A DNA stretch of 64,000 nt from Agromyces sp. 3263 (GTDB lineage Bacteria > Actinomycetota > Actinomycetes > Actinomycetales > Microbacteriaceae): contig NZ_JAVDUV010000001.1 in assembly GCF_031456545.1 (NCBI RefSeq), positions 1,240,001-1,304,000 of the forward strand, in the 5' to 3' direction. The notes under the pieces were generated by a model that was given only the letters and a program-made list of their open reading frames with translations, made no database searches and was not told where the DNA came from. Shown in pieces: positions 9,061 through 10,599 of this stretch. How positions within the stretch are numbered: position 1 is the first letter of the stretch; every line of letters begins with the position of its first letter. A program made the position numbers and the translations under genes.

Positions 9061-9272
9061 CGACAGCTACACTCTGCGGGCTTGCGCCCTCGCACCGAAG
9101 GATCTTCACGCTGACCGCCGCGCTGACGAGGTGGAACTGCGGAAGATTTTTCTGAACGGCCTTTTCTCGCAGATCCTTTTGCACGCAGCATCCGCCCACC
9201 CGATCCTCCCGGATGCCGCACCGCGACGCGCACCGTCTGCGCCGTCACACCGCGTCATCCCCCCGTCATGAA
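9061..9272. other. Gene-free stretch downstream of upp
   Basis: First 212 bases of a 508-base stretch without a conventional gene. It contains a TACACT hexamer at 9067-9072, an AT-richer patch near 9150-9180 and an inverted pair built from GCATCCG (from 9188) and CGGATGC (to 9216), which may be a weak terminator for upp. No open frame with protein character was found. Confidence 0.5.
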
Positions 9273-9301
9273 TTGACACACGCTCCGACCTCGGATTGAC
9301 T
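9273..9301 (+). promoter_or_regulatory. Promoter placing the transcript start at the leader ATG
   Basis: A perfect -35 TTGACA (9273-9278) is followed after 17 bases by TTGACT (9296-9301) at the -10 position. The -10 is poor against TATAAT but has the first and last T and the fourth A. It ends 6 bases before the ATG at 9308, the spacing expected when a transcript starts on the start codon itself. Confidence 0.45.
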
Positions 9302-9307
9302 CTCCCC

Positions 9308-9409
9308 ATGACCGACACCGCACGCACCCTGACCGCCCCCGAGGCTCTCAGGACGACCGGCATGATGATGCCGGCGCGCGCGTCCATGTGTTGTCGAATG
9401 TGCCGCTGA
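9308..9409 (+). CDS. Putative Cys-rich leader peptide (33 aa)
   Basis: A 33-codon frame, too short for ordinary gene calling, reads MTDTARTLTAP at its start and ends MCCRMCR before TGA. Two adjacent Cys codons (TGT TGT at 9389-9394) and a third (TGC) lie within seven codons of the stop. Mycobacteria are known to use leaderless Cys-rich mini-genes (NCBI names such as Ms4533A-family leader peptide) as cysteine-sensing attenuators. The same layout is seen here: probable leaderless promoter, Cys run just before the stop, then about 160 untranslated bases before the next gene. Three consecutive ATG codons at 9362-9370 offer an alternative 15-residue start. Function is inferred; there is no direct evidence of translation. 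Confidence 0.55.
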   Translation: MTDTARTLTAPEALRTTGMMMPARASMCCRMCR

Positions 9410-9568
9410 CCGCGACCCGACCGCCGAGTCCCGCAGCCGATCCGCACCCCGATCGACCGCGACTCCACTGAACCAGCCGCACCGGCGGTTCGCCAGGCCG
9501 AACGGCCATTCGCATCGACCCCGTCTCGAGGGGTCCATCGCCGCACCTTCTTCGCACAAGGAATCGTC
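9410..9568 (+). promoter_or_regulatory. Candidate attenuator region between leader peptide and regulator gene
   Basis: 159 bases between the Cys-rich mini-gene and the winged-helix gene. Small hairpins are visible: an imperfect AACC/GGTT-ended stem at 9471-9490, GGCC-GAAC-GGCC at 9496-9507, and GACCCC/GGGGTC around a 7-base loop at 9517-9535. None is followed by a U run, so any termination would be Rho-dependent. The GACCCC stem leaves the downstream AAGGA ribosome-binding site free. Confidence 0.35.
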
Positions 9569-10357
9569 ATGTCACTCGCTCTCGCACCCGTCCGCACCGC
9601 CGCCGTCCGCACCGCCCCGTCGCTGCCCGACGTGCCGGCCCGCCCCGTCTCGATCGCGCCGCGCCCCGCAGAGGCGCCGACCACGCAGGCCGCTCCGGCC
9701 GAGTCGGCGCCCGCTGCCCGCGCCGCCGCTCCCCGCGTCCGCGCCGTGCCCGAGGGCACCGAGGCGCGCGGCTTCGTGCTCTACGTCGGCATCGACGAGG
9801 CGAAGGCCATCGCCGACGGCACGACGCTGCACCGCATCGTCGAGGCGCTCCGCACCCTCACCGCCGAGGTCGCCCCGTCGGCCGAGACCTACGCGGCCGT
9901 CGCCTTGGCCCCCGAGGGCTCGGGCGGCCGCGACGTCGACGTCGTGCGCCTCGCCCTCCAGGACCCGGCCGCGCTCGCGAAGCAGCGCGAGGGCCAGGGC
10001 ACGCGCGACGACGCCGACCGCCACCCGAACGGCGTCATCATCGACATCTCGCGCAAGCGCGTGCTGCTCGACGGCGAGGCAGCCGGGCTCACCTACAAGG
10101 AGTTCGAGCTCCTGCAGTACCTCGTGCTCCGTGAGGGCCGCACGATCGACCGGCACGAGCTCATCGACAGCCTGTGGGACGCCGACGACGAGGCACCGAG
10201 CGAGCGCACCATCGACGTGCACGTGCGCCGGCTACGCTCGAAGCTCGCCCACTACCAGGACATCGTCCGCACCGTGCGCGGCGTCGGCTACCGGTTCGAC
10301 CGCCACGCCGACGTCTCGATCCGCCAGGCCTCGACGCCGTCGCCCGACCTGTACTGA
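9569..10357 (+). CDS. Orphan winged-helix (OmpR/PhoB-type) transcriptional regulator
   Basis: 262 residues. The C-terminal third is a full Trans_reg_C DNA-binding domain: LTYKEFELLQYLVLREGRTI, then SERTIDVHVRRLRSKL and VRTVRGVGYRF. There is no phospho-receiver domain. In its place are an Ala/Pro-rich N terminus (about 65 residues) and a roughly 100-residue segment beginning RGFVLYVGIDEAKA that I do not recognise, which could be a ligand or partner domain. The start ATG has an AAGGA site 8 bases upstream. The gene follows the putative Cys-rich leader, so its expression may respond to cysteine supply. Target genes unknown; no kinase nearby. Confidence 0.85.
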   Translation: MSLALAPVRTAAVRTAPSLPDVPARPVSIAPRPAEAPTTQAAPAESAPAARAAAPRVRAVPEGTEARGFVLYVGIDEAKAIADGTTLHRIVEALRTLTAEVAPSAETYAAVALAPEGSGGRDVDVVRLALQDPAALAKQREGQGTRDDADRHPNGVIIDISRKRVLLDGEAAGLTYKEFELLQYLVLREGRTIDRHELIDSLWDADDEAPSERTIDVHVRRLRSKLAHYQDIVRTVRGVGYRFDRHADVSIRQASTPSPDLY

Positions 10358-10398: not shown

Positions 10399-10599
10399 AT
10401 CCGTTATATATTCATTACGCATCCACTGTTTGCTGTGGCGGTGGATGCGGAATGTGATTGCAGGACACTCTTGGTGCAAGGGCGAGGGTCGGTCGTCAGC
10501 CTCTACGACCGGCCCTCACCCGTTCCCGCCCCGGTTTCCCTATCCTTGGATGAGTCCGGGTCGGAAGACCCGGCGTCGACACGTCGAGGGGAGCCCAAG

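Follow-up and report, generated by a model that had tools for sequence, protein, structure and literature searches.

A short reading frame rich in methionine and cysteine codons precedes the gene of a winged-helix regulator in Agromyces sp. 3263, and the locus raises the question of which signal such a frame would read and to which genes the regulator would pass it on. The locus lies in a 64,000-nucleotide stretch of DNA (hereafter the window), whose positions are used throughout. The initial annotation had described a leaderless, Cys-rich leader peptide in front of an orphan winged-helix gene, and its layout (both promoter hexamers, the 17-nt spacer, the ATG at 9308, a 33-codon frame ending in MCCRMCR and the 159-nt gap) was recovered when the sequence was re-read; to it we add that a Met run lies within a compensated hairpin, that GTCAY repeats occupy 9244-9269 and that the signal probably has a methionine side. 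From the sequence comparisons reported below, we consider it fairly probable that the upstream ORF (uORF) at 9308-9409 is a ribosome-sensed Met/Cys attenuator, which would set a sulfur regulator acting in trans. The elements of the locus are the following.

9244-9248, 9254-9258 and 9265-9269, plus strand: three GTCAY direct repeats, an operator candidate, 10-11 bp apart and just 5' of the -35 hexamer
9273-9278, plus strand: -35 hexamer TTGACA, followed by a 17-nt spacer
9296-9301, plus strand: -10 hexamer TTGACT, six bases 5' of the ATG at 9308-9310
9308-9409, plus strand: uORF of leaderless type, Met/Cys-rich, 33 codons and TGA, encoding MTDTARTLTAPEALRTTGMMMPARASMCCRMCR
9357-9374, plus strand: hairpin CCGGCAU-GAUG-AUGCCGG over the Met codons at 9362-9370 (97.0% of cells pair)
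9389-9409, plus strand: uORF tail TGT TGT CGA ATG TGC CGC TGA, that is Cys-Cys-Arg-Met-Cys-Arg-stop
9410-9568, plus strand: structured gap of 159 nt between uORF and gene, with the ribosome site AAGGA at 9558-9562
9426-9430/9461-9465 (with an inner hairpin), 9470-9474/9487-9491, 9496-9500/9503-9507 and 9517-9522/9530-9535, plus strand: helices of the gap
9569-10357, plus strand: winged-helix regulator gene, orphan OmpR/GlnR-type, 262 aa

Conservation of the upstream reading frame

A scan of species genomes returned 292 orthologous loci, the best 80 of which were retained with up to 1.5 kb of flank on each side. In a peptide search of these best 80 of 292, a frame with CCRM[C/S/H] lies 5' of the orthologous gene at 74 loci; four of the six others (L010, L027, L035 and L073) have next to no DNA upstream or none at all, and two (L038 and L080) carry the single-Cys form CRMC instead of CCRM. 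The uORF is present in all 76 of these loci having upstream DNA (74 CCRM, 2 CRMC). With the window, the 76 make up a set of 77 leaders, gathered with TGYCGAATG as the pattern and with the ATG picked by the analyst, the ATG, the second Cys and the CGA being partly given by this construction. Across the set, the uORF measures 29 to 34 codons, with differences in whole codons, and ends in TGA (40 leaders), TAA (30) or TAG (7). It holds two to four Cys codons, which cluster towards the stop, and three to six Met codons besides the start; Cys-Cys is found in 75 of the 77 (the second Cys partly by construction of the set) and the third Cys is replaced by Ser or His in nine, in some lineages. Eight more leaders of the same type were found in g23, a genus of the same family that is presumably Microbacterium. 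The comparison with relatives that the initial annotation had suggested thus finds both the frame and its Cys codons kept. A chance ORF is ruled out by the conserved CCRM frames, by stop codons that vary while the frame is kept and by the promoter geometry. No leader-peptide family of NCBIfam or Pfam was matched by the uORF peptide.

As for the promoter, a -10-like hexamer ends 6-7 nt 5' of the ATG in 76 of the 77 leaders, at least five of the six letters of TTGACA are found upstream in 75, and an SD-like motif before the uORF ATG is found in none. From this geometry the uORF is predicted to be leaderless, in agreement, at the level of the sequence, with what had been claimed for the window.

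The Arg codon after Cys-Cys is CGA in all of the 74 CCRM loci selected by peptide from the best 80 of 292, although the 112 Arg codons of five window genes are mostly CGC (73 CGC, 24 CGG, 6 CGA). The invariance is taken from the peptide search because the pattern that defines the 77 leaders itself contains CGA. A slow codon aiding a pause, or a contact of the RNA, would each fit. A second CCRMC frame, MTHCCRMCACVGAAR, lies elsewhere in the same genome (L114, G000:C1:1463056-1463070), where its TGA and the ATG of a membrane-protein gene overlap, with a hemA-like gene downstream; it may be a coupled leader or a product of chance.

Distant orthologues in three other families (f6, presumably Micrococcaceae, f7 and f12) have different ORFs upstream, which are again Met/Cys-rich. 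Frames ending in CCRM or CCRRM are found at five of nine loci in f6, where the leaders examined also use CGA, and all eight f7 loci have Met/Cys-rich frames such as MTSTTHSTRMCPAGMCMLCVRCR; among three f12 loci, MMCSMMMMCMMMRMMRR and MMMMMMQMMQ were found in the two genomes examined (one at G047). Families f7 and f12 keep the Met/Cys richness without the CCRM-type tail. The filter applied to ORFs of the distant families (at least three Met/Cys among the last 16 residues) also passes unrelated ORFs (L331, L335 and L337), and weak matches mean little; the Met runs at the f12 leader position are not a product of this filter. With the f6 protein as query at E 1e-25, matches were obtained in 27 of the 119 genomes of the order, all in f1, f6, f7 and f12, and none in the other 92.

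Structure of the leader RNA

In the hairpin that covers the Met codons, one G-C pair has become A-U in 7 of 29 Agromyces sequences. Counted over the 29 Agromyces leaders, seven helices pair in 92.3% of cells, against 26-51% for slid versions, and both partners differ in ten pairs, where shuffles give 3.6 (none of 500 as high); the structure behind these counts was derived from one of the 29 counted sequences, and relatedness can inflate counts of this kind. The leader has no Rfam match up to E 1. Between the uORF and the gene there is no intrinsic terminator, the sole terminator-like match of the plus strand (9367-9384) lying inside the uORF, and a classical terminator attenuator is thereby ruled out.

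Masking of the ribosome site by the uORF tail appears in single folds of Agromyces leaders; over the 29 leaders, this pairing does not rise above shuffles (mean z -0.53, none below -2) and was rejected as not above chance. When ribosome positions were simulated on 38 of the 77 leaders, SD opening was eased by about 1 kcal/mol in Agromyces, with wide scatter and not just where the ribosome sits at the Cys codons; no easing was obtained in the other groups.

Another pairing is offered by the element GCAUCAUC, which stands 23-32 nt 5' of the regulator start in 21 of the 77 leaders (20 from other genera, and L032) and is absent from 56. In most of the 21 it is complementary, over 8-10 nt, to AUGAUGAUGC of the uORF. 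The duplex z of -1.87 of these leaders is circular, because they were selected for that element; the evidence independent of the selection is its fixed place and the count of 22 out of 23 copies of the 8-mer within those 21 loci that fall in the leader. By complementarity, the Met codons of such leaders can pair beside the ribosome site of the regulator gene. The Met-codon hairpin and this long-range pairing share bases and are therefore mutually exclusive, which makes them a plausible switch. The 56 leaders without the element, the tail pairing in Agromyces that stays within the range of shuffles, and the small, scattered effect of simulated ribosomes speak against such a switch.

The regulator and the GTCAY repeats

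That the downstream gene encodes a winged-helix protein without a receiver domain, as had been stated from the letters, is borne out by Pfam: the C-terminal Trans_reg_C domain (PF00486; residues 170-243, E 7.8e-23, 80.8 bits against a cut-off of 26.2) is the only one above cut-off, no receiver domain is found in Pfam, and the N-terminal half matches no Pfam or NCBIfam family. The closest solved DNA-binding domains are those of GlnR structures (8hml, E 6e-22; 8hig, about 47% identity over 89 columns), and in the fold search the match is confined to the DNA-binding part. The AlphaFold model (mean pLDDT 65.4) is confident in this part alone and poor in the N-terminal part. Judged from these matches, the protein is an orphan winged-helix regulator of the GlnR/PhoB type. 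It is present in all 37 searched genomes of the genus of the window, and its own genome gives seven matches to the regulator query, mostly to the DNA-binding domain only. Between the regulator gene and a MarR gene (about 10400-10535, plus strand), an AT-rich promoter-like stretch with two strong hairpins (z -4.0) is likely to be a small RNA; it has no credible Rfam match, and its 28-mer GTGATTGCAGGACACTCTTGGTGCAAGG recurs at 54 of the 80 best loci (L003-L082, out of 292), 25 times on the same strand and 29 on the opposite one.

The GTCAY repeats have the spacing right for direct-repeat binding of the OmpR/PhoB type (about one helical turn), and such binding is predicted here. At the regulator promoters of Agromyces, the best match agrees in 13 or more of the 15 letters in 28 of 29 and in all 15 in 23 of 29; outside Agromyces the picture is patchy, with 10 of 47 at 14 or more and 14 of 47 below 12. 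A search of the genus for the perfect triple repeat returned 65 matches in 36 of 41 genomes, against 17 matches in 4 genomes for a reversed-repeat control, 12 of them in G003. By coordinates, at least 26 of the 41 genomes carry the perfect triple at the promoter of the regulator itself, often as the sole perfect match, and it is mainly because of this position that the regulator is predicted to bind the repeats, which would be a candidate operator both at its promoter and at sulfur genes. The 35 nt at 9210-9244, 5' of the repeats, occur a second time in the same genome (G000:C1:2092810-2092845, 89% identity).

Sixteen other match regions, chosen mainly for recurring sites (about 20 further matches lie outside this sample), were examined, and comprise six tkt/ctaB, four nirA, one metF-metE, two metY and three unrelated regions (L193, L194 and L198). 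The nirA promoters (28 of 30 fetched loci) reach 13 or more in 20 cases, 18 of which score 14 or more, with every site on one strand, and the site of the own genome reads GTCAT-GTCAT-GTCGC-GTCAC, in register. A score of at least 13 is reached by 13 of 28 metF-metE promoters (again from 30 fetched loci), while 20 of the 28, own genome included, have the core GTCAY-N5-GTCAY when the site strings are inspected by eye; by all five metY-1 loci, at exactly 13 in two including the own genome; and by five of eight nirA promoters of g23 (8 of 17 loci). Among the controls, it is reached by one of 25 promoters of the metY-2 paralogue and by none of 31 wHTH-MarR intergenic gaps, with shuffles passing the mark of 13 in 0.3-0.9% and that of 14 in no more than 0.13%. 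The triple GTCAY of the gap between tkt (transketolase) and ctaB (heme O synthase), found beside TATACT in six genomes of the genus (L183-L188), is next to genes that are not obvious sulfur genes.

In NCBIfam, metY passes its cut-off and metF, metE and nirA stay below theirs, nirA having ferredoxin-nitrite reductase as its best match. Despite this score, nirA was assigned to sulfate assimilation because its neighbours include PAPS-reductase-type genes: PAPS reductase and CbiX domains lie beside it at L189, and in the own genome the genes next after it on its strand are two of the PAPS-reductase family, one for an EF-Tu-like GTPase and one for an NMT1-like binding protein, which may be read as cysH, cysD (sulfurylase-type), cysN and part of a sulfonate-type transporter. 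The proposal that the regulator governs other genes gains independent support from the repeats common to nirA-cysHDN, metF-metE and a metY.

Signal, mechanism and known systems

The signal is probably the sulfur amino acids rather than cysteine alone, because the Met codons are equally conserved and dominate in f12, and because the tail resembles that of metL (see below). Of the cysteine switch first proposed, the conserved Cys codons and the frame stand, and cysteine as the sole signal is not supported. In the mechanism that we favour, ribosomes would begin at the 5' AUG and translate the Met run and then the Cys-Cys-Arg-Met-Cys tail; if charged Met- or Cys-tRNA were scarce, they would slow at the Met run or at the Cys tail, and their position would shift the folding of the leader, freeing the ribosome site of the winged-helix gene and raising the output of regulator, control being exerted, as we infer, at translation and not at termination. 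The regulator would then bind the GTCAY repeats at its own promoter, at nirA-cysH-cysD-cysN, at metF-metE and at one metY, and adjust them in trans. The observed parts on which this scheme is built are the conserved uORF, the promoter geometry, the Met/Cys bias in four families, the covarying helices and the shared repeats. Points that weigh against it are the Agromyces tail pairing and the simulated ribosomes, the Ser or His that some lineages have for the third Cys, the patchy repeats outside Agromyces, the tkt/ctaB and unrelated match regions, and the NCBIfam score of nirA. A wider version is held only tentatively: in several Micrococcales families one leaderless Met/Cys uORF would set a dedicated GlnR-like sulfur master regulator, with the ribosome as sensor of the regulon; in some lineages the Met codons would form the antisense arm to the ribosome site, and over evolution the codons that are read would alternate between Cys and Met under an unchanged logic.

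The alternatives differ in the part of the locus that they question. The regulator could be a target within the sulfur regulon and not its head, the GTCAY repeats being sites of another OmpR-family protein, a reading favoured by the seven matches to the regulator query in the own genome, the majority of which cover just the DNA-binding domain; we regard this as unlikely, given how often the regulator's own promoter carries the perfect triple, and carries the only one. A cysteine-only attenuator as in mycobacteria, with Met codons that merely serve the hairpin, would account for the near-constant Cys-Cys and for the overlap of the Met run with a conserved hairpin, and polycysteine leaderless ORFs are reported to act in this way in Mycobacterium smegmatis; the Met runs that dominate f12, the methionine genes among the predicted targets and the similar Streptomyces lividans metL leader, which precedes a methionine importer, speak against it and make it distinctly unlikely.

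Two further readings move the sensing away from the codons. If the peptide itself mattered, as a nascent chain or as a metal or thiol sensor acting through Met/Cys side chains (copper or thiol stress, for example), one would understand why the tail is nearly letter-for-letter constant in the family, Arg-Met included; such a sensor seems quite improbable, since f7 and f12 dispense with that tail and the shared GTCAY sites point to sulfur genes. A structured cis-RNA, such as a riboswitch of unknown type for which the reading frame is secondary, would agree with the covarying helices within and after the uORF and with the invariant CGA. It is very improbable all the same, as the ATG, the frame and the stop are kept while stop codons vary and lengths shift by whole codons, and as Rfam gives no match up to E 1.

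Among known regulators, GlnR is an orphan OmpR-family nitrogen regulator of actinobacteria. The DNA-binding domain of the present protein is closest to the solved GlnR structures; unlike GlnR, its N-terminal half belongs to no receiver family and its predicted targets are sulfur, not nitrogen, genes.

The leader itself recalls the polycysteine leaderless short-ORF attenuators of mycobacteria (Shell 2015, PMC4633059; Canestrari 2020, as described in citing papers), with which it shares a short ORF of predicted leaderless type, which would stand first in the transcript, a Cys cluster near the stop, conservation across species and a structured gap. Unlike in mycobacteria, the first gene is a transcription factor and not a cysteine-metabolic gene, and sulfur genes are linked to it through shared repeats only; moreover, Met codons are here a second conserved component, Cys codons number two to four only, and a CGA is conserved. 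It is set apart as a Met/Cys leader before a regulator because it does not lie directly before sulfur genes. The metL leader of S. lividans TK24, upstream of metNIQ, is reported (PMC8079986) to be leaderless, 29 aa long and without a clear terminator. Its tail, CMCRRMCAF, is close to the MCCRMCA of the uORFs, a putative relation that rests on a short motif; by the same source, metL controls a methionine importer, whereas the uORF precedes a regulator gene. Candidate leader peptides of cys operons in Mycobacterium, Propionibacterium and Bifidobacterium (Seliverstov 2005, PMC1262725) likewise carry Cys runs close to the stop without a terminator; they precede sulfur genes and involve no regulator, and for methionine operons that study reports no conserved structures. 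No such leader-regulator system is reported in the literature searched, which included work on the sulfur regulators of these genera and left most subscription journals outside its scope. If the proposed reading is true, an uncharacterised regulator would gain its signal, operator and regulon in one step, and codon-counting control would have moved from single operons, as in mycobacteria, to a transcription factor.
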